In this document: one piece after another, positions 1,061 to 18,416 of the stretch
Layout: each line of letters starts with the position of its first letter
Numbering within the stretch: the first letter of the stretch is position 1
From: Bacillota bacterium
Lineage (GTDB): Bacteria; Bacillota_I; Bacilli_A; Erysipelotrichales; Erysipelotrichaceae
Reading direction: 5' to 3'
Length of the DNA stretch: 39,210 nt
NCBI GenBank assembly: GCA_023249475.1
Contig: JAHFCO010000003.1
Coordinates: 69,224 to 108,433, forward strand
Notes under the pieces: generated by a model
Database searches by the model: none
Told to the model about the DNA's origin: nothing
What the model saw: the letters and a program-made list of their open reading frames with translations, nothing else
Made by a program: the position numbers and the translations under genes

Positions 1061-3151
1061 ATGGACCAACTCACTCTGGTTAAGCTCATCAACAATGCGG
1101 CGCTCCTTCTGTCGCTCAGTCTGTTTAATCATCTCGGACACCTCATGTTTGAAAAACGTGGCCGGTTTGCGGATATCGTCGACGGTCTTTTGATCGGGAT
1201 GATCTGCATCGCCGTCATGTCGGTTCCGATGACGTTCGCCAGCGGCTTGGTTTTCGATACCCGGTCGATCTTGTTGAGTCTGAGCGCGTTGGTGTTCGGA
1301 GCGATCCCGACGATCCTTGCGGCGATCATGGCGATCGCTTTTCGTTTGTCGATGGGAGGTGTCGGCGCGCTCCCGGGGATCTTGGTCATCCTGAGCGTCA
1401 CGATCTTCGGATTGTTCTGGCGCCGTTACATTTTCCCGAAAACGCAAAAACACAAAGTCATCTATCTCTACCTCTTCGGCGTCACAACCCACATCATCAT
1501 GCTTTCATGCATGTTGGCGCTTCCGAAAGAGTTGGCGTGGTTTACGATCAAGTCGCTTTCGTTTGAAATCATGACCATCTATCCGATCGCGACCTTGATG
1601 CTGGGTTTGCTTCTGTTGTCTCAAAACGAGCGACAGGAAATGCAGATCCGGGTGCAGGAAGCCGATCTACAGTATCGCAACCTCTTTGAAAACAACCATG
1701 CGGTCATGCTGATCCTCGACCCGAAGAGCGGGATCATCGTCGATGCGAACCCGGCCGCCGAGCAATTCTATGGTTGGAGCCGTGAACAATTGACGAAGAT
1801 GAACATTAACCAAATCAACACCTTATCGCTTGATGAAATCAGAACGGAAATGGAGAAGTCGGTTACATTTAAACGGAACCACTTCGAATTCAGGCACCGG
1901 AAAGCGGATGGTTCGATCTCGGATGTGGAAGTCTACTCCGGTCCGATCCACAAGTCGGGGAATCGATTACTGTATTCCATCATTCATGACATTTCGGTAC
2001 GAATGACCGCCCAGCGCGAACTCGAAGGGAGTGAAAAACGATTCAGAACCCTCTTGGATAACGCCCCCTATGCGATTTTCATTCAAACCGAGGGGAAGTT
2101 CGCCTACTTGAATCGAACCGCCTGCCGTTTATTCGATATCGAATCCCAGTCCCGGCTCATCGGGAGCCGTGTTTTGGATCGGATCCACCCTGATTACCAT
2201 CAAAAGGTTCTTGAGAGAATCCAAGCCTTGAACGAAAAGACGGAGATCGTCCCGCCGGTCGACGAAGTCTTCCTGGATGTGAACGGGAATGCCGTCGATG
2301 TGAACGTACTTGCGGTCCCCTTCGAATACGAAGGAAGACACGGCGCGTTGGTCTTCGCATTGGACATCAGTAAAATCAAAGCGTTCGATCGGATGAAGCA
2401 TGAAATCGAAATCCAGATGCGCCAACAGCAGAAGTTGGAAGCGATCGGGACCTTGGCGGGGGGCGTCGCCCATGAAATCAACAACCCGCTTAACGGCATC
2501 ATGAACTACGCGCAGTTGATCTACGATCAAATCCAGAGACATAGCGATGCTTCGGGATATGCGAAGGAAATCATCCACGAGACCGAACGCATTTCCGAAA
2601 TCGTGAAGAACCTTCTGCAGTTTTCCAGGATGGAAAAACAGTCGCATAGCTATGCCAGCATGTACGACGTGGTGGCGAGGACGACATCGCTGATCCGAAC
2701 CATCATCAAAAACGACAATATCGATCTCGATATCCGTTTGGATGATGGCTTGCCGGATTTCAAATGCCGATCCCAACAGATTCAACAAGTCTTGATGAAC
2801 CTTTTAACCAATGCACGCGATGCGCTCAATGAGCGCTATCCGGAGATGGATCCGATGAAACGGATCGAAGTGCGTTGTTCGCTTGAAACGATCGATCAGC
2901 GAAGATGGTTGTTGCTGAGTGTAAAAGACTACGGGTGTGGAATTCCATCGCATAACCTGAATCGGATTTACGAACCCTTCTATTCGACCAAACCGAAAGA
3001 GAAGGGGACCGGGTTGGGGCTATCGATCAGTTACGGGATCGTCAAAGACCACCATGGGGAAATCTATGTCGATTCGAAGGACGGGGAGACATGTTTCTCC
3101 GTAAAGTTACCGGTAGATAACGGGTGGGAACATCCAGGGGAGGTCGCATGA
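1061..3151 (+). CDS. Membrane sensor histidine kinase: 5TM (LytS-like) - PAS - PAS - HisKA - HATPase
   Basis: This 696-aa kinase starts with about 190 residues of hydrophobic helices. They include a DTRSILLSLSALVFGAIPT stretch at about 66-84 that resembles the 5TM receptor module of LytS-type kinases. Two PAS-like domains follow at about 201-315 and 323-440. The phosphoacceptor motif is AGGVAHEINNPLNG with His471. The N box is at about 576-591, G1 is DYGCG at 623-627 and G2 is GTGLG at 649-653. It should autophosphorylate on His471 in response to an unknown membrane or PAS-bound signal and pass the phosphate to the regulator encoded next. Its stop codon overlaps that gene's start (ATGA at 3148-3151), so translation is coupled. 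A paralogue of identical length is at 5701-7791. Confidence 0.9.
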   Translation: MDQLTLVKLINNAALLLSLSLFNHLGHLMFEKRGRFADIVDGLLIGMICIAVMSVPMTFASGLVFDTRSILLSLSALVFGAIPTILAAIMAIAFRLSMGGVGALPGILVILSVTIFGLFWRRYIFPKTQKHKVIYLYLFGVTTHIIMLSCMLALPKELAWFTIKSLSFEIMTIYPIATLMLGLLLLSQNERQEMQIRVQEADLQYRNLFENNHAVMLILDPKSGIIVDANPAAEQFYGWSREQLTKMNINQINTLSLDEIRTEMEKSVTFKRNHFEFRHRKADGSISDVEVYSGPIHKSGNRLLYSIIHDISVRMTAQRELEGSEKRFRTLLDNAPYAIFIQTEGKFAYLNRTACRLFDIESQSRLIGSRVLDRIHPDYHQKVLERIQALNEKTEIVPPVDEVFLDVNGNAVDVNVLAVPFEYEGRHGALVFALDISKIKAFDRMKHEIEIQMRQQQKLEAIGTLAGGVAHEINNPLNGIMNYAQLIYDQIQRHSDASGYAKEIIHETERISEIVKNLLQFSRMEKQSHSYASMYDVVARTTSLIRTIIKNDNIDLDIRLDDGLPDFKCRSQQIQQVLMNLLTNARDALNERYPEMDPMKRIEVRCSLETIDQRRWLLLSVKDYGCGIPSHNLNRIYEPFYSTKPKEKGTGLGLSISYGIVKDHHGEIYVDSKDGETCFSVKLPVDNGWEHPGEVA

Positions 3152-4203
3152 GCAGAATTTTGATCGTCGATGATGAACCATCGATCCGCATCACCTTATC
3201 CGCTTTTTTGAAATCGGAAGGGTACGATGTCCATACCGCATCCGACGCGCTGAAGGCGCTCGAGTATTTGAAGGAACATCCCGTCGATATCCTGGTGACC
3301 GACATCATCATGCCGGGGATGACCGGTGTCGAACTGATCGACAAACTTCGGAAATTCCAAAAGGAAATCCGCGTCATCATCATGACGGGTGAACCGACCG
3401 TGGAAACGGCGGTCACCGCGGTTCAAAACGGGGCGAGCGATTATCTGGCGAAACCGATCCGGAAAGAAGATTTCCTGCGTGTCGTGAAAAATACCGCGCA
3501 AACCAAAGCGTTGATGGATGAGAAGAGGGATTTGGAAGAGCGCAACATGGAATACCAACGCAATCTGGAATACATGGTTGCGACACGGACGCATGCTTTG
3601 CATAAAGCGATGGAAAGCATCATCACGCTGCTTTCCCAAGTCGTGGAATTCAGGGACCCCTATACCGCGGGGCATCAACGGAGGGTCGGGAACCTGGCGG
3701 CGTCGATCGCCGAGAAACTCAACCTAACCAACGAACAAACCGAATTGATCCGCATCATCGGCTACATCCACGACATCGGAAAGATCACGATCCCCTCGGA
3801 GATCCTCTCCAAGCCCGGGAAACTCTCCCGTGCGGAGTTCGAACTCCTGAAGGGACATTCGTACAGCGGCTATGAAATGCTCTCCCGGGTGGACCTGCCG
3901 CCCCTGATCGCGGAAGCCATCTACCAACACCATGAGCGATTCGACGGATCGGGTTATCCCCGCGCCTTGGTGAACTCCCAGATCATGGTCGAAGCGCATG
4001 TCCTGATGGTCGCCGACGTCGTGGAAGCGATGATGTCGCACCGTCCCTACCGTCCTTCGTTGGGAAGGGATGTCGCCTTACTGGAAATCAAAGAGAAAAG
4101 CGGACGCCTCTATCGTCCCGACGTGGTGAACGCGTGCTTGGATCTTTTCAAGAACGGATATGAAATCGACGACGAAGCCCACGAAGTCATGATTCCCGTC
4201 TAG
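3148..4203 (+). CDS. Response regulator with HD-GYP output domain (predicted c-di-GMP phosphodiesterase)
   Basis: A 351-aa RpfG-like protein. The receiver domain (about 1-120) carries the acidic pair D8/D9, the phosphoacceptor Asp52 in VTDIIMPG, Thr80 and Lys102. A helical linker at about 120-165 leads into an HD-GYP domain with His176, the HD pair His208-Asp209 in HDIGK, His237, HHE at 261-263 and GSGYP at 267-271. All canonical metal-binding and GYP residues are present, so hydrolysis of cyclic di-GMP is likely, controlled by phosphorylation from the upstream kinase. The start at 3148 has GGGGAGG upstream and gives a normal receiver N-terminus (MSRILIVDDE); the longer in-frame start at 3124 would lie inside the kinase gene. 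No diguanylate cyclase is present in the window. Confidence 0.9.
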   Translation: MSRILIVDDEPSIRITLSAFLKSEGYDVHTASDALKALEYLKEHPVDILVTDIIMPGMTGVELIDKLRKFQKEIRVIIMTGEPTVETAVTAVQNGASDYLAKPIRKEDFLRVVKNTAQTKALMDEKRDLEERNMEYQRNLEYMVATRTHALHKAMESIITLLSQVVEFRDPYTAGHQRRVGNLAASIAEKLNLTNEQTELIRIIGYIHDIGKITIPSEILSKPGKLSRAEFELLKGHSYSGYEMLSRVDLPPLIAEAIYQHHERFDGSGYPRALVNSQIMVEAHVLMVADVVEAMMSHRPYRPSLGRDVALLEIKEKSGRLYRPDVVNACLDLFKNGYEIDDEAHEVMIPV

Positions 4204-4229
4204 CGCAATCCGAAACGATTGCGTTTTTT
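4204..4229 (+). terminator. Terminator after the first kinase/HD-GYP operon
   Basis: CGCAATC (4204-4210) pairs with GATTGCG (4217-4223) around CGAAAC and is followed by six T residues. It starts directly after the stop codon. Confidence 0.8.
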
Positions 4230-4230
4230 C

Positions 4231-4258
4231 TTGACCTAAACCATACTTCATGTACTAT
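4231..4258 (+). promoter_or_regulatory. Promoter of the ferredoxin-domain aldo/keto reductase
   Basis: TTGACC at 4231-4236 is followed after 16 bases by TACTAT at 4253-4258. The promoter sits immediately after the preceding terminator and gives a leader of about 20 bases. Confidence 0.6.
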
Positions 4259-4283
4259 CATAAGGATATAAAGCGAGGGAACC

Positions 4284-5411
4284 ATGGAAAAAAGAGAATT
4301 CAAGAATACCGGTTTCAAGCCATCGTTGCTGGGGTTCGGATGTATGCGATTCCCCACGTCGCCCGACGGGACGATCAACGAAACCGAAGCCGAGAAGATG
4401 CTGGATACGGCGATCGCCAACGGGGTGACCTACATCGATACGGCTTATCCGTATCATAACGGGGCGAGCGAACCGTTCGTCGGGAGAGCGCTCAAGAAAT
4501 ATGATCGTTCTTCGTTCTACTTGGCAACCAAACTTCCGATCTGGGAACTGAACGCCAAAGAAGACGTGAAACGCATTTTCGACTACCAACTGAAACGATT
4601 GGATGTGGACTATGTGGATTTCTACTTGCTTCACGCGTTGGATCAGGAAAAGTGGCAGAAAGTCCTCGACTTCAACATTGTCGAATTCTGTCTCGATCTG
4701 AAAAAGGAAGGAAAAATCCGCAATCTGGGATTCTCCTTCCACGACGATTATCCGGTTTTCGAGACGATCTTAAACCATCACGACTGGGATTTCTGTCAGA
4801 TCCAGTTCAACTATGTGGATACGGAAATCCAAGCTGGGATCAAAGGCTATGAACTGGCGACATCCAGAGGGATTCCCGTCGTCGTCATGGAACCCATCAA
4901 AGGGGGGACCCTGGCAAATCTTCCTTCCGACATCGCATCGATCTTCAAGAACCATGACGCCGATAAAAGCTTGTCTTCGTGGGCGCTGCGTTGGGTCGCT
5001 TCCTTCTCGAACGTAAAGGTGATCCTGAGCGGGATGTCGACGATGGCCCACGTGGCCGACAACCTGGCGACCTTCAACGAAGCCAAACCGATGACGCATG
5101 AAGAAATCACCTTGGTCGAAGAAGTCGCAAAGACGATGAAAGCCCGGGTAAAAAACGGATGCACCGGCTGTGCCTATTGCATGCCTTGTCCGTTCGGTGT
5201 CGATATCCCGCGTAATTTCCGAATCTGGAACGATTACTCGGTCTATCAAAACAAAGAGGCGACGATCCGTCGTTACTTCAAGTCGATGGATGCCTCCCAA
5301 CGCGCCGACCAATGTCAACTCTGCGGCGCCTGCGAAACGATGTGCCCCCAGCAGATCCAGATACGTGACGATCTAAAGCAAGTGGATCGCGATTTGTCAG
5401 GTTTACGTTAA
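4284..5411 (+). CDS. Aldo/keto reductase with C-terminal 4Fe-4S ferredoxin-like domain
   Basis: A 375-aa protein of the fused aldo/keto reductase-ferredoxin type (COG1453-like). The TIM-barrel part contains the tetrad Asp52 and Tyr57 (in YIDTAYPYHNG), Lys83 (TKLP) and His117 (LLHALD). The last 90 residues hold two cysteine clusters, Cys293/296/299/302 and Cys344/347/350/354 with CP endings, matching 4Fe-4S ligands. The family is predicted to transfer electrons between iron-sulfur clusters and a carbonyl substrate in the cytoplasm; the substrate is not known. The ATG follows AAGCGAGGG. The gene has its own promoter and terminator, so its place between two paralogous signalling operons need not mean a shared function. 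Confidence 0.9.
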   Translation: MEKREFKNTGFKPSLLGFGCMRFPTSPDGTINETEAEKMLDTAIANGVTYIDTAYPYHNGASEPFVGRALKKYDRSSFYLATKLPIWELNAKEDVKRIFDYQLKRLDVDYVDFYLLHALDQEKWQKVLDFNIVEFCLDLKKEGKIRNLGFSFHDDYPVFETILNHHDWDFCQIQFNYVDTEIQAGIKGYELATSRGIPVVVMEPIKGGTLANLPSDIASIFKNHDADKSLSSWALRWVASFSNVKVILSGMSTMAHVADNLATFNEAKPMTHEEITLVEEVAKTMKARVKNGCTGCAYCMPCPFGVDIPRNFRIWNDYSVYQNKEATIRRYFKSMDASQRADQCQLCGACETMCPQQIQIRDDLKQVDRDLSGLR

Positions 5412-5438
5412 CACTCCAAAAGGAGTGTTCTTTTTTTT
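5410..5438 (+). terminator. Terminator after the ferredoxin-domain reductase
   Basis: AACACTCC (5410-5417) pairs with GGAGTGTT (5422-5429) around AAAA and is followed by C and eight T residues. Confidence 0.9.
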
Positions 5439-5700
5439 GTTGAAGTATAAAGATCAAGCCATCCATCAAAATCCATGGTTTCGCGTTTGGGAGGAGGGGT
5501 TCAATCGGGTTGAGATTCCAATCCGATGCAAAGAATGTCGCACTATTTTTGAGAATGGCATTCATGACTTGTGGCCGATCTTTCGTGACGGCTGTGCCTA
5601 TCGAGAATCCAATCGTGAGTATGTCGTTGCGCAACAAACTAAATATTGCTAATGGTGAATCCGTATGCGAGAATGAATATATATATATGCGGGGGCAAGT
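5439..5700. other. Intergenic stretch before the second kinase gene
   Basis: About 260 bases have no convincing gene. Short open frames on both strands have no recognisable domain, and the longest forward one begins inside the terminator. A perfect palindrome GTTGCGCAAC lies at 5626-5635. Its TTGCGC could serve as a -35 box with TAATGG at 5650-5655, a weak match. The ATATATATAT run at about 5675-5685 precedes the GGGGGCAAG binding site of the kinase gene. Confidence 0.4.
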
Positions 5701-7791
5701 ATGAATGAGGAAATCAGTATTAAACTTATAAATAATATCGCGTTTTTATTGTCTCTTAGTGTTTTTAACCATATCGGGAATCTCATCTACAGAGCGCAGG
5801 GAAGAATCAAACAATTTTTCAATGGAGTAACGATAGGTATGATCGGGGTCGCAATCATCATGGTGCCGATTGTCGATACATCCACGTACAGTTTCGACAC
5901 TCGTTCGATTCTAATCGGAGTATCGGCAATCGTTTTTGGTTTCTTTCCTACGATCATCGGAGCCATCATTTCATCCATGTACTTCATCACCATCAACGGA
6001 TTTCATTGGATCGATCTTTACATGATCACAAGCATCGTAGCGCTCGGTTTGTTTTGGCGTCGTCACGTCATTCCTAATCAAGGGAAGTCAAAGATCCTGT
6101 CCGTCTATGCTTTCGGTGTGTTCAGTCATTTTCTGGTTCTTTCTTGCTTATTCATCCTACCTTTTGAACAGGCGATCGAAATCATCCAATCTGTTTCACT
6201 CAGACTGATGGTCTTGTTTCCATTGGGAACGTTGGCGTTAACGCTCCTGTTGATGTCTCAGAACGATCTTAACGAGGTACATTTGAGAGCGATCGAGGCC
6301 GATCTTCAGTTTCGCGACTTGTTTGAAAACAATGATGCCGTAATGCTCTTAATCGACCCGAAAACGGGGAAAATCAAAGATGCGAACCAAGCAGCTACCC
6401 GATTCTATGGGTGGAATCGAAAAGAACTCTTGAAGATGAACATGAATCAGATCAATGTGATGGATGCAGAACAAATCAAAAGCGAACTGGAGAAAAAGAA
6501 GAACGAGAAGCGCGTTTATTTCGAGTTTCAACACAAAAAAGCAGATGGTAGTTTTGCCGACATTGAGGAATATACCGGTCCGATCAGGAAGTATGGGAAT
6601 CATTTGCTTTATTCCATTATCCATGATGTGACGGAGAGAGTCAGAACCCGTCGGGAATTGGTGGAGAGTGAAGCGCAATTTCGAACCTTGGTCGACCGTG
6701 CTCCATTCGCGATCTTCATTGTCATCGACTACCATATTGTTTTCTTGAACGACTCGGCATATTCATTACTTGGGACATTCGAGACGAAAGACATTAAGGG
6801 CTCGTTGTTCCAGGATCGAATCCATCCTCAATCAAGAACCACCGTAAGCGAATGGATCACTTCGGTATATCAGAACGAACCAGAAATTCCGATGATCGAG
6901 CTAGAATTCCTGAAGATGGATCAAAGCATCGTAGGATGCAAAGCCATAGCGGTCACCGTCAACTTTGAGAATAAGACGGGTGCGCTCTTGTTTGTTACGG
7001 ATGTCTCGAAAGAGAAGGAACTTGAGAAGCTGAAGCTTGAGTTTGAGGCGCAGCTGCGGCAACAGCAAAAACTTGAATCGATCGGCATTCTCGCAGGTGG
7101 TGTTGCGCACGAAATCAATAACCCGCTGGGAGGCATCCTCAATTACGCCCAATTGGTCTATGATCAATTGGATGCGACGTCGGAGACTGCGGAGTATATG
7201 AACGAAATCATTAAAGAAACCGAAAGAATATCGAGAATCGTACGCAATCTTCTTCAATTCTCGAGAATGGAAAAACAGTCCCATAGCCTCGCGAAAATAG
7301 AAGACATCATCGAGGATACATTATCGCTAATGAGGTCGGTTCTCAGAAAAGACCATATCGATCTTGAGATTTCCATCGCGAAAGAGATACCGAAGGTAAA
7401 ATGCAGGTCTCAGCAGATTCAGCAAGTGATCATGAATTTGATTACCAATGCACGGGATGCATTGAATGAGCGTTTTGGCGAAAACATCGGCATGAAAAAG
7501 ATCAGACTGGGATGTTCTTTAGAGTCAGTCGAAGGTGAGAATCGGGTTTTAATCTCAGTTTCGGATAATGGTTGTGGCATTTCCGATGATGTTCAAAAGA
7601 AAATGTTCGATCCGTTTTTCTCAACAAAGCCAAAAGACAAGGGGACCGGGCTTGGACTTTCCATAAGTTACGGGATTGTGAAAGATCATAAAGGCCAAAT
7701 CCATTGTCAATCGAAAATAAACGAAGGAACAGAATTCACGATATTGCTGCCGGTCGATAATGGTTGGCAAATGGAGGATATCTATGAGTAA
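5701..7791 (+). CDS. Second membrane histidine kinase, paralogue of the first (5TM - PAS - PAS - HisKA - HATPase)
   Basis: Again 696 aa and collinear with the protein at 1061-3151. It has the same KLINN...LLSLS.FNH start, the DTRSIL membrane stretch at about 66-84, PAS-like domains at about 200-315 and 322-438, and the phosphoacceptor His470 in GGVAHEINNPLGG. It also has N-box, DNGCG and GTGLG ATP-binding motifs. The kinase core is nearly unchanged between the two copies, while the PAS regions and the outer loops of the membrane module differ most, suggesting different signals. Base composition is visibly more AT-rich than the first copy. The gene overlaps the next by eight bases, implying translational coupling with its own HD-GYP regulator. 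Confidence 0.9.
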   Translation: MNEEISIKLINNIAFLLSLSVFNHIGNLIYRAQGRIKQFFNGVTIGMIGVAIIMVPIVDTSTYSFDTRSILIGVSAIVFGFFPTIIGAIISSMYFITINGFHWIDLYMITSIVALGLFWRRHVIPNQGKSKILSVYAFGVFSHFLVLSCLFILPFEQAIEIIQSVSLRLMVLFPLGTLALTLLLMSQNDLNEVHLRAIEADLQFRDLFENNDAVMLLIDPKTGKIKDANQAATRFYGWNRKELLKMNMNQINVMDAEQIKSELEKKKNEKRVYFEFQHKKADGSFADIEEYTGPIRKYGNHLLYSIIHDVTERVRTRRELVESEAQFRTLVDRAPFAIFIVIDYHIVFLNDSAYSLLGTFETKDIKGSLFQDRIHPQSRTTVSEWITSVYQNEPEIPMIELEFLKMDQSIVGCKAIAVTVNFENKTGALLFVTDVSKEKELEKLKLEFEAQLRQQQKLESIGILAGGVAHEINNPLGGILNYAQLVYDQLDATSETAEYMNEIIKETERISRIVRNLLQFSRMEKQSHSLAKIEDIIEDTLSLMRSVLRKDHIDLEISIAKEIPKVKCRSQQIQQVIMNLITNARDALNERFGENIGMKKIRLGCSLESVEGENRVLISVSDNGCGISDDVQKKMFDPFFSTKPKDKGTGLGLSISYGIVKDHKGQIHCQSKINEGTEFTILLPVDNGWQMEDIYE

Positions 7792-8839
7792 AGTGCTGGT
7801 CGTCGACGACGAAAAATCAATCCGCTTAACCTTATGCGCTTTTTTAAGATTAGAAGGATATGAAGCATTCGATGCGAGCGATGCACATGAAGCGATCGAA
7901 ATTGTAAATAACAATGCGATCGATGTCGTAGTAACTGACATCGTTATGCCTGGGATATCGGGTGTCGATTTGATCAATGACATCCGGGCGGTATCAAAAG
8001 ATATCCGCATAATCGTGATGACCGGGGAGCCCACGCTCGAAACCGCTGTGCAATCCGTTCAAAGAGGGGCAAGCGATTATCTTTCAAAACCCTTTAGGAG
8101 AAACGACTTTCTTCGCATCGTCGGCAATGCGGCACAAATGAAGACGATGATCGATGAAAAGCAGAGGCTGGAAAAACAAAACATCGAGTATCAGCATCAC
8201 CTTGAAGAAATGGTCCGGGAAAGAACGGATGCCTTGAGGCGTGCGACGATCGGAATCGTCAATTTATTATCGCAAGTCGTCGAATTCAGAGACCCCTATA
8301 CTTCAGGTCATCAACGTCGTGTTGGAAATCTTGCTGCAAGAATCGCGGAAGAGATGAACTTAGAGAAATCGACGATCGAAAACCTCAGAATCATCGGCTA
8401 TATTCACGATATTGGCAAGGTGGCGATCCCGGCAGAAATCCTTTCAAAACCCGGAAGACTTACCTCGCCTGAAATCGAATTACTAAAAAGCCATTCCGAG
8501 TGTGGATATGAAATGGTCAAGAAGGTCGATCTGCCATCCTATTTCGCAGATGCGGTTCATCAACACCATGAACGACTCGATGGGTCAGGATATCCGAATC
8601 ACCTTAAAGGTGACGAAATTTCGATCGAGTCGTATATCTTGATGGTAGCCGATGTCGTCGAAGCGATGGAACTACATCGCCCGTATCGACCATCCCTTGG
8701 ACAAGAATCGGCCTTATCGGAGATTCAATCAAATCGCGGCGTACTTTATCATCCGAAAGTCGTCGATGCATGTCTTCGCCTTTTTGATTCCGGATACAAG
8801 ATCGATGACAAACTCTATGAAGTGAGCGTGCATCTATAA
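7784..8839 (+). CDS. Second response regulator with HD-GYP output domain
   Basis: 351 aa, the same length as the regulator at 3148-4203. The receiver has D8/D9 and the phosphoacceptor Asp52 in VTDIVMPG. The HD-GYP domain keeps HDIGK at about 208-212, HHE at 261-263 and GSGYP at 267-271, so it is predicted to be an active c-di-GMP phosphodiesterase controlled by the kinase encoded just before it. The start at 7784 follows ATGGAGGATATCT and gives MSKVLVVDDEKS; an upstream in-frame ATG at 7760 would extend into the kinase gene and lacks a binding site. The two regulators are most alike in their catalytic segments, so insulation between the two systems probably rests on receiver surface residues. 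Confidence 0.9.
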   Translation: MSKVLVVDDEKSIRLTLCAFLRLEGYEAFDASDAHEAIEIVNNNAIDVVVTDIVMPGISGVDLINDIRAVSKDIRIIVMTGEPTLETAVQSVQRGASDYLSKPFRRNDFLRIVGNAAQMKTMIDEKQRLEKQNIEYQHHLEEMVRERTDALRRATIGIVNLLSQVVEFRDPYTSGHQRRVGNLAARIAEEMNLEKSTIENLRIIGYIHDIGKVAIPAEILSKPGRLTSPEIELLKSHSECGYEMVKKVDLPSYFADAVHQHHERLDGSGYPNHLKGDEISIESYILMVADVVEAMELHRPYRPSLGQESALSEIQSNRGVLYHPKVVDACLRLFDSGYKIDDKLYEVSVHL

Positions 8840-8872
8840 AGGGTATCCTACTTGGACGGTCCTGGATGACAA

Positions 8873-8909
8873 GATGAAAAACATCCTGATTCTTTCAGGA
8901 TGTTTATTT
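8873..8909. terminator. Bidirectional terminator between convergent genes
   Basis: AAACATCCTGA (8879-8889) pairs with TCAGGATGTTT (8895-8905) around TTCTT. On the plus strand TTATTTC follows the stem core, and on the minus strand a run of five T follows. The minus-strand stop codon (8904-8906) lies inside the stem. Confidence 0.75.
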
Positions 8910-15611: not shown

Positions 15612-15926
15612 ATGGCTCGTCAACAATTACAGAACCTAACCGAACCGATGTACTACGTATTGTTGAGCCTGGTCGAGCCGCGACACGGCTATGGCATCAT
15701 GCTTTTCGTTCGCGAGATGTCGCAGGGCAGGGTGCAGATCGGAGCCGGGACGCTTTACGCATTGTTGAGTCGATTCGAATCCGAACAATTGATCGATCTT
15801 GTGAGTAATGTTGAAAACAAGAAAACCTATCGGTTGAGTCAAGAAGGCAAAGAAATGTTGATGAAGGAAGTCAAGCGTCTGCAAACCTTGGTCGGGGATG
15901 GCCAAAAAATCCTGGGGGAACCATGA
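15612..15926 (+). CDS. PadR family transcriptional regulator
   Basis: A 104-aa PadR winged-helix protein: LTEPMYYVLLSLVEPRHGYGIM at about 9-30 contains the family's Leu-rich first helix and HGYGI motif. GAGTLYALLSRFESEQLI at about 43-60 is the recognition helix and wing region, followed by YRLSQEGKEML. The short C-terminal helix makes it a subfamily-2-like PadR. It shares an ATGA overlap with the following DUF2812 gene, so it is co-translated with the membrane proteins it probably controls. An autoregulatory site is suggested by inverted repeats in the promoter. Confidence 0.92.
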   Translation: MARQQLQNLTEPMYYVLLSLVEPRHGYGIMLFVREMSQGRVQIGAGTLYALLSRFESEQLIDLVSNVENKKTYRLSQEGKEMLMKEVKRLQTLVGDGQKILGEP

Positions 15927-17167
15927 AACAGAAAATCACGTTGTCTTATTTGAACCCGTGTTTCTTGCCAAACATTGAAGATGAATTTACGAAACAAGCC
16001 GCCAAGGGGTGGTTGATCGATGAGATTTTCGAGTTGACGATGAAATACAAGAGAACAGAACCGCAAAACTTGAAGTTCAACATCATCCTTCATCCAACTC
16101 AAGCAATGGATAACCGGGATTACGAAAAGTTAAGCGAATATGAAACACTCTGTGTCCAAAGCGGTTGGGAACTGCGGACTCGTCATAAAGAATACTCGGT
16201 ATTTTCGACCGACAAGCTGGATGCCGTTCCGCTTCACTTCGAATCTCAGGATCATGAGAATAACGTAAAGAAGAAGATCGATCGATTCCGCAACGGGAAT
16301 ATCGCAATCATCCTGTTGACTCTTCTTTTGCTTTATCTTTTTATCGGTTCACATGATTATCTGGATGATCTCTCTTATTATTCTTTTGGACAAACCCTAT
16401 CCTTTGCTTTGGTCACGTGTGGCCTGTTGTTCAACCTCGTACTTGTTTGGATGTGGACGAAGCGAAGCGCAGTCCGTCATCACAATGAAAGTTTGGAATT
16501 CAGTGACTTGATCTATCGAGGGTCAAAAGCCGTCAACCTATTGTTTGTCGTCGGTTTCCTCTTGCATTTGGCATTCACAGAGCGATTCCAAATGTTTGGA
16601 GGATACTATCTTGTGATCTATATGATCTACACCAACATTAAAACGTACCGGCATTCACGAGCGACAAAGCGAAAATATTCGGCATCGCTTGAAGATGTCG
16701 TGATTTTATCGGCTTCGGTTCTATTGATCCTATTGAATTATTCCGGGGGTGTTAATCTACTTTACAGAGATCGTTTCACCTCGGATCGCGCGTTGAAACT
16801 TGGCGATTTCGTCACGAATCCCATGCCCGAAGAAATCACGGATCATCCGCAAGCCGGACCGCATATCCTGACGATCACCGATTACTTTGAGCAGGACGGG
16901 ACACATTATGTCCAAACGAAAATCATGAAGTTCGACTCGCAAAAGAAACTTCAATCTTTCTGGAATGAATTACTTAAGCATCATCGCCTTGGGGGTGAAA
17001 CGATTGTTGAATGGGGAGTAATCGGTTACTACGTCGAGGAAAACGGATTGATTTATCGCGATAAGGATGAAATCGTCATCATCTATACGGATTTCGATTT
17101 GAAAAGCGAAGCGAATCAAGCGATCGTTAAGAATAGACTAGGACTGAATCTAGTCGGAGTTGAGTAA
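15923..17167 (+). CDS. DUF2812 membrane protein, first copy
   Basis: 414 aa. The N-terminal 1-95 is a DUF2812 domain (NPCFLPNIEDEF, GWLIDEI, then GWELRTRHKEYSVFS). Five predicted membrane helices follow at about 125-143, 155-178, 203-218, 225-240 and 257-273. A C-terminal soluble part of about 130 residues is shared with the next protein, including an IGYYVEENG/RDKDEIVIIYTDFDL stretch. The function of DUF2812 proteins is unknown; they frequently sit next to PadR regulators, as here. The ATG overlaps the padR stop. Base composition is more AT-rich than in the O-acyltransferase genes upstream. Confidence 0.85.
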   Translation: MKQKITLSYLNPCFLPNIEDEFTKQAAKGWLIDEIFELTMKYKRTEPQNLKFNIILHPTQAMDNRDYEKLSEYETLCVQSGWELRTRHKEYSVFSTDKLDAVPLHFESQDHENNVKKKIDRFRNGNIAIILLTLLLLYLFIGSHDYLDDLSYYSFGQTLSFALVTCGLLFNLVLVWMWTKRSAVRHHNESLEFSDLIYRGSKAVNLLFVVGFLLHLAFTERFQMFGGYYLVIYMIYTNIKTYRHSRATKRKYSASLEDVVILSASVLLILLNYSGGVNLLYRDRFTSDRALKLGDFVTNPMPEEITDHPQAGPHILTITDYFEQDGTHYVQTKIMKFDSQKKLQSFWNELLKHHRLGGETIVEWGVIGYYVEENGLIYRDKDEIVIIYTDFDLKSEANQAIVKNRLGLNLVGVE

Positions 17168-17168
17168 G

Positions 17169-18416
17169 ATGAAACGCAAGACGATCCTCCTTAGTTTTAA
17201 CCCTCTATTTTTCCCTAGTATTGAAAATCAGTTGGCTAACATGGCGAAAAGAGGGTGGATTCTGGATGAAATCAATGAATATTCGATGATTTTCAAGTTT
17301 TCAGAATCTCAGAATCTTGTTTTTGGTACCCTCGTCCAGTCAAAACAAAATCCAAGTAAATATGATGATTCTCTAGATGAAGCTGAAATGATGTGTCGCG
17401 AAGATGGTTGGGAGTTAAGGGCGAGGTATCGAAACTTCTCGGTGTTTTCGAATGTGAGTCCGAATGCAACACCGATCCACACCGATTCATCGCATCGCTA
17501 CCAAACCGTTTTAAGTAACACCGTTTTCGCAGGATCTATTTTCGGAGTGCTACTATTGATCCTCTTGTTTTTTGATCGGTCTGTCAATGGATTGGAAACA
17601 TATCTATGGTTTGAACCAGTCATCGCAAGTTATGTCATCACTTTATACCTTTTTGGCGCAATAGGTGTGATTACCCTTGCACCGGCAATTACTTGGTTAG
17701 CGATGAATCGTGATAAATTCGAGATCCCGAAATTCGAGTTTCCGGATTTCTTTGTCGGGCTTCAAACAAAATTGCTCTTTATTCTCTATTGTCTCCCTTC
17801 AATACTTATCCTGTCTTACCCGTTCTTAATGCAAAAAAGAAATCTTTCCACGGGAGTTTATCTTTTTGGATTTATCGGTGTAGCGATTGTATTCAGTGTA
17901 GCAAAATGGAAAAGATTCATTCAGGGCAAAAGAGGTATGACGATCGAATCAACAATTTTCGCGATTATCTTGTTTGCAATGACTGGACTTCTTTCCGTAG
18001 GTGGAGACCGATTTATCCAATCGTTTATTTTTCAGCCTGATCGATACCTAAAGATGTCGGATTTCAATTTTGAGTCAGCGGATGTCAACGTATATGAGAA
18101 TGCGAGTGTTGGTTTACTCGGGTTTGAGAAAGTGAACTATACCGAAAGTGGAGAACAGGGTAGCATTATGACCCAGATCATGGTTTTCTACACCGAAGGG
18201 CACAAGGAAAAATATTGGGATACGCTGAGAAGAGACTATCAGTTTGATACCGCGATTATTGTGGACCAACAATTCATCGGATACTACCTCAAAGAGAATC
18301 GCGGGGTATTGCTTAGGAACGGCAATGAAATCGTGCTTATCATTTCTACATTTGATCTATCGGAATTCGGTCGACTTCAGACGATACTTGAACGGCTGAA
18401 GATAACCCCCAGGTAG
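17169..18416 (+). CDS. DUF2812 membrane protein, second copy
   Basis: 415 aa and the same architecture as the preceding protein: an N-terminal DUF2812 domain (FNPLFFPSIENQL, GWILDEI, then GWELRARYRNFSVFS), several membrane helices, and a C-terminal domain with IGYYLKENR and NEIVLIISTFDLSE. The membrane helices differ most between the two copies. It is probably a tandem duplication. The ATG at 17169 is chosen because GGAG lies nine bases upstream and it starts just after the previous stop; an in-frame TTG at 17160 overlapping that stop is less likely. This gene is among the most AT-rich in the window. It is the last gene of the operon. Confidence 0.85.
   Translation: MKRKTILLSFNPLFFPSIENQLANMAKRGWILDEINEYSMIFKFSESQNLVFGTLVQSKQNPSKYDDSLDEAEMMCREDGWELRARYRNFSVFSNVSPNATPIHTDSSHRYQTVLSNTVFAGSIFGVLLLILLFFDRSVNGLETYLWFEPVIASYVITLYLFGAIGVITLAPAITWLAMNRDKFEIPKFEFPDFFVGLQTKLLFILYCLPSILILSYPFLMQKRNLSTGVYLFGFIGVAIVFSVAKWKRFIQGKRGMTIESTIFAIILFAMTGLLSVGGDRFIQSFIFQPDRYLKMSDFNFESADVNVYENASVGLLGFEKVNYTESGEQGSIMTQIMVFYTEGHKEKYWDTLRRDYQFDTAIIVDQQFIGYYLKENRGVLLRNGNEIVLIISTFDLSEFGRLQTILERLKITPR

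Follow-up and report, generated by a model that had tools for sequence, protein, structure and literature searches.

The best-known parallel to the modules described here is the RpfC/RpfG pair of the Xanthomonas DSF system, where a multi-helix membrane kinase phosphorylates a regulator composed of a receiver and an HD-GYP domain that lowers c-di-GMP, and where the regulator RpfG is activated by phosphorylation (PMC4504480). RpfC is a hybrid kinase, with a receiver and an HPt domain of its own and a five-helix DSF input. The membrane sensor of our modules has other relatives, the LytS/BtsS-type kinases (PF07694). These are reported to have seven helices (PMC10653868, PMC11109136), as was shown experimentally for BtsS (PMC10653868), a kinase that phosphorylates a DNA-binding regulator of the LytTR type. 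Concerning the output, a review states that the majority of HD-GYP enzymes hold two metals and that those which do perform only one-step hydrolysis; certain HD-GYP proteins show no activity on c-di-GMP or act on 3'3'-cGAMP (PMC8177086). In the literature searched we found neither a published description of a family of modules with a LytS-type sensor and an HD-GYP regulator nor biochemistry on its members.

The DNA analyzed here, hereafter the window, is a stretch of 39,210 nucleotides from a 2.09-Mb draft genome in 60 contigs (G000), whose nearest named relative is Erysipelotrichaceae bacterium UBA12416 (L023). It carries two modules, M1 and M2, each with a membrane histidine kinase (K1, K2) and a response regulator (R1, R2) (Table 1). 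In the two modules the Pfam domains follow one order: 5TM-5TMR_LYT, PAS, PAS, HisKA, and HATPase_c, and then Response_reg and HD_5/HD. The features of a cognate pair, i.e. the catalytic histidine (H471 in K1), the D52 of the receiver, and adjoining genes that overlap (by 4 nt in K1/R1 and 8 nt in K2/R2), are present in both modules. An earlier note on this DNA had described genes of these lengths, an identical domain order, overlapping start and stop codons, and a reductase between the modules, and our annotation agrees with it. The length of R1 and R2 is counted from an internal ATG, the longest ORFs beginning 24 nt upstream. We considered the aldo/keto reductase as a component of the system and rejected it. 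It is flanked by terminator-like stems and, apart from the window, adjoins the module in UBA12416 alone; relatives outside the genus have no such neighbor. Hence, we regard it as separate from the modules.

Table 1. Features of the region carrying the two modules (positions in the window).
Feature	Position	Strand	Remarks
Module M1 (K1+R1)	1061-4203		
K1, membrane histidine kinase, 696 aa	1061..3151	+	LytS-type (5TMR_LYT) seven-helix domain, two PAS, HisKA (H471), HATPase_c
R1, response regulator, 351 aa	3148..4203	+	Receiver (D52) and HD-GYP phosphodiesterase domain
Terminator-like stem 3' of R1	4202..4225	+	
Aldo/keto reductase (Aldo_ket_red), C-terminal 4Fe-4S domains	4284..5411	+	Separate unit
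Terminator-like stem 3' of the reductase	5410..5429	+	Not present in UBA12416; marks the left boundary of the lineage-specific segment
M2-bearing segment, approximate edges	5412..8873	+	Absent from UBA12416 (L023)
Module M2 (K2+R2)	5701-8839		
K2, membrane histidine kinase paralogous to K1, 696 aa	5701..7791	+	Same architecture as K1; Phe at the position of BtsS Arg99
R2, paralogous receiver/HD-GYP regulator, 351 aa	7784..8839	+	
Bidirectional terminator-like stem 3' of R2	8879..8905	.	Counterpart 3' of the reductase in the sister species

We consider it likely that each module is a two-component system controlling the breakdown of c-di-GMP, M1 being the resident copy and M2 an old paralogue or co-orthologue with an altered sensor pocket. 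In contrast to RpfC, K1 and K2 are simple kinases, with no receiver or HPt domain by Pfam, and their input is a seven-helix LytS-type domain followed by PAS domains. They also differ from BtsS, since their core matches HisKA and their partner is a receiver/HD-GYP enzyme instead of a LytTR regulator. In the mechanism we propose, the LytS-type seven-helix domain and the two PAS domains would detect a small molecule, in K1 probably a carboxylate, together with a cytoplasmic cue, the kinase would autophosphorylate (at H471 in K1), and the phosphate would pass to the receiver of the regulator encoded by the overlapping gene. The phosphorylated receiver would then switch on the two-metal HD-GYP phosphodiesterase, a direction of control that we infer, and this enzyme would cut c-di-GMP, most likely to pGpG. 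With its catalytic parts kept and the pocket of its membrane sensor altered, M2 would probably make the shared c-di-GMP pool respond to a signal other than that of M1.

The residues of the output are intact in both regulators. The receivers have D8, D9, D52, T80, and K102, and the HD-GYP domains (118 and 124 bits for Pfam HD_5) have the metal ligands H176, H208, D209, H237, H261, H262, and D290 as well as the GYP motif. We placed the HD-GYP residues by alignment to PmGH (PDB 4mcw, E 2e-34), the solved HD-GYP domain closest in sequence to R1 and R2; D170 and K212, equivalent to D183 and K225 of PmGH, are also intact in the two proteins. Seven of the eight PmGH metal ligands are kept. The eighth, the E185 that holds the third metal in PmGH, is Tyr172 in R1, R2, and all aligned relatives, i.e. 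the glutamate of the trinuclear PmGH type is missing. Both regulators are thus predicted to be HD-GYP proteins of the two-metal type, and since such enzymes carry out one-step hydrolysis, pGpG would most likely be their product from c-di-GMP. The two proteins also match the NosR-family response regulator c-di-GMP phosphodiesterase (NF053512) over nearly their full length, with scores (220 and 217 bits) that are, however, well under the curated cut-off of 400 bits.

The earlier note had proposed that two sensors converge on c-di-GMP hydrolysis, and that a genome lacking GGDEF proteins would speak against a paired c-di-GMP system. Matches in the genome comprise 13 full GGDEF domains plus a partial one, two EAL domains, four HD-GYP domains (two lying in reading frames that also match GGDEF), a single PilZ domain, and a single c-di-GMP-I riboswitch; with 13 GGDEF matches, a c-di-GMP system is present. 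The proposed convergence fits the intact residues of R1 and R2, while the hydrolysis itself is a prediction. One could instead suppose that c-di-GMP is not what one or even both of the modules act on, and that their HD-GYP regulator is an adaptor or cuts another cyclic dinucleotide, because the substrates of HD-GYP proteins vary and every member of the family has a tyrosine in place of the third-metal glutamate of PmGH. Yet, the remaining metal ligands, the GYP motif, D170, and K212 are intact, two metals are what most HD-GYP proteins have (PMC8177086), and the GGDEF set of the genome is large, so we hold this to be improbable. Some other elements of the genome relate to c-di-GMP. The sole PilZ domain (G000:C22:10954-11247, L132) is in a 744-aa protein resembling processive glycosyltransferases, with intact RxxxR and DxSxxG motifs, and this protein is a plausible candidate target of c-di-GMP. 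The only c-di-GMP-I riboswitch match (G000:C2:35950-36027, L118) adjoins a gene whose product matches the RsgI-like anti-sigma central domain. Finally, a GGDEF protein (G000:C2:66331-66792, L001) lies in an open frame of 476 aa around 3 kb upstream of the window.

The membrane domain of both kinases is well recognized by PF07694 (5TMR_LYT), with 69.8 bits for K1 and 51.5 for K2 against a cut-off of 24.6. The "5TM" of the earlier note is merely the name of the Pfam family: models covering residues 1-330 of the two kinases (mean pLDDT of 84 for K1 and 85 for K2) have seven helices in the membrane region, as in BtsS, followed by a PAS domain. A fold search with the K1 model gave, among the matches listed, only PAS domains. 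Aligned to BtsS of Escherichia coli, K1 keeps both of the pyruvate-binding arginines, Arg72 and Arg99 (R68 and R95 in K1). The positions of Cys110 and Ser113 of BtsS are Gly and Val in K1 and in most members; therefore, the ligand need not be pyruvate, and from this alignment K1 may bind another carboxylate. Of the 27 distinct sensors compared (28 rows of the alignment, one of them a duplicate), 25 have the equivalent of Arg99, the exceptions being K2, which has Phe and keeps only the equivalent of Arg72, and L043, which has Ser. In view of this conservation, the input of K2 has probably changed. Since K2 and L043 are apart in the tree, their losses of the arginine look independent. We do not link the loss to genomes with several copies, as two cases are too few to claim it. 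A more specific reading is that M2, through the loss of the second arginine, is blind to the ligand of its ancestor and adjusts or cross-wires the control of c-di-GMP by M1, and that such erosion recurs beside an intact copy (M2 and, independently, L043); we find this rather unlikely.

Whether the two modules exchange phosphate bears on the cross-talk suggested in the earlier note. Guided by the specificity residues of EnvZ (PMC2991266), we located six kinase positions by their distance from the catalytic histidine. Five are identical between K1 and K2, in favor of cross-talk, and the first one differs (Asn/Gly). On the regulator side, however, R1 and R2 differ at about nine positions in helix 1 and the beta5-alpha5 loop. 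Cross-phosphorylation between K1/K2 and R1/R2 is therefore a possibility that these comparisons do not allow us to predict with confidence.

The two modules have diverged extensively, with 51% identity between K1 and K2 and 61% between R1 and R2. Among kinase regions, the identity is 43% in the membrane domain, 61% in PAS1, 36% in PAS2, 74% in DHp, and 56% in the ATPase. The view that the kinase cores are almost unchanged is thus too strong, since only DHp is well kept and the ATPase is less conserved than PAS1. Similarly, the identical length of the two kinases is real, but it results from two one-residue indels that cancel out, and kinases of the family span 559-850 aa (regulators are normally 351-354 aa), which makes it uninformative. 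The path between M1 and M2 in the tree is 1.35 changes per column, compared with 0.12 between M1 and the UBA12416 orthologue, and the copy is therefore old. A recent duplication is excluded by this long path and by the 51-61% identity.

The association of a LytS-type sensor with an HD-GYP output, regarded as an uncommon pairing in the earlier note, turned out to be the usual arrangement of a family with members across the Erysipelotrichaceae and Clostridia. When named genomes were scanned and genomes of the same order added, we found 27 modules in which the kinase immediately precedes the regulator, including the two of the window, and 26 of these have a LytS-type sensor. The close relatives of R1 in the named genomes were found in Erysipelotrichaceae and Clostridia, including Papillibacter, Acidaminobacter, and Anaerotalea. 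Nine relatives were run through Pfam, and eight have the LytS-type domain and one to three PAS; in the others the DTR motif of LytS-type domains was seen in the alignment. The ninth is a sensor swap: in genome G296 (L123, 5338-8487, minus strand) a regulator of this type has as its partner a GAF/PAS kinase lacking the LytS-type domain. Regulators were detected at E 1e-60 in 10 of the 315 genomes of the order, and six of these 10 have two or three copies, some adjacent. One locus (L041, 5526-12827) has two adjacent modules that belong to separate subclades and both have relatives elsewhere, in further genomes; it is an older tandem pair in another genus. In another genome (G303:C38; L044, L117), a stop interrupts the reading frame of the regulator, which is probably a decaying third copy. 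M1 and M2 are genuine modules of this widespread type and old paralogues of each other.

To trace the origin of M2 we compared the window with UBA12416, the genus being sampled by two genomes. UBA12416 has the same order of acetyltransferase, K1, R1, and reductase, and lacks M2: the stop of the reductase is directly followed by the terminator found 3' of R2 in the window. The flanks of this empty site are 85% and 91% identical. M1, which the sister species also has, is the resident copy, and M2, inside an otherwise syntenic stretch, would be either an old paralogue or a co-orthologue taken up from a relative richer in AT. The earlier note had proposed just these two origins, and not a recent copy, and both the path lengths and the clean site in the sister species bear it out. 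Its description of the second set as AT-richer also holds once tabulated: GC is 0.43/0.46 and GC3 0.52/0.48 for K2/R2, whereas GC3 is 0.67/0.70 in M1 (0.66-0.70 with the reductase included). Among the long reading frames that were sampled in the source genome, M2 falls toward the lower end of the GC3 values. The same pattern was observed for a second DUF2812 gene (17160-18416 in the window), which is AT-rich (GC3 of about 0.43), has 27% identity to its neighbor at 15923-17167, and is absent from an otherwise syntenic site in the sister species.

Trees of the regulator, of the kinase core, or of their concatenation gave no resolution among M1, M2, and the pair from the genus g55. With an alignment of 1045 columns, M1+M2 is weakly preferred in the best tree (77/69), M2+g55 is not rejected (p-AU 0.31), and M1+g55 without M2 is rejected (p-AU 0.022). 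A placement of the two copies in distant clades, which according to the earlier note would argue against a paired system, was looked for and not seen. The trees weakly prefer M1+M2 and are compatible with both origins.

We give about an even chance to a horizontal gain, in which M2 came as a co-orthologue from an AT-richer relative in the Erysipelotrichaceae or Clostridia and landed behind the reductase. Its composition resembles that of AT-richer relatives of the family (GC3 of 0.34-0.54), the site is cleanly empty in the sister species, and the grouping with g55 is not rejected. The donor is harder to find: no close one was detected in the 315 genomes of the order, in a sample of 392 genomes of the phylum (where a search with R2 at E 1e-80 retrieved only its own genome), or in plasmids, whose best relatives are distant (around 40% identity). 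Viral contigs had no relative of M2, and we rejected a phage or plasmid source on these grounds. There is also no mobile-element remnant at the left edge (5412-5700), and the landing of a module beside its own homologue calls for an explanation. The alternative is an old tandem duplication in an ancestor of the lineage, followed by loss in the sister species. Tandem paralogous modules do occur in other genera (L041, G300, G303). This origin also agrees with the best tree, with the neighboring DUF2812 paralogue likewise missing from the sister species, and with a terminator after the reductase only where M2 is present, as a deletion would have fused the reductase to the downstream terminator. 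The AT-richness would then reflect relaxed constraint instead of transfer. Yet the GC3 of M2 is far under that of its neighbors and matches AT-richer relatives, while a resident gene of such age is expected to show the composition of its host, and the region upstream of M2 has no counterpart elsewhere in the genome. We therefore hold duplication and loss as a serious but tentative possibility, a little short of an even chance.

The mechanism of these modules is ordinary, and the second copy is the moderately interesting part. The module, yet unnamed, is recurrent in anaerobic Firmicutes, where it would couple a LytS-type membrane sensor to the breakdown of c-di-GMP. In M1 and M2 there are two naturally occurring paralogues of which only the first retains a known ligand residue, a setting in which to test how sensors diverge when the output is kept.
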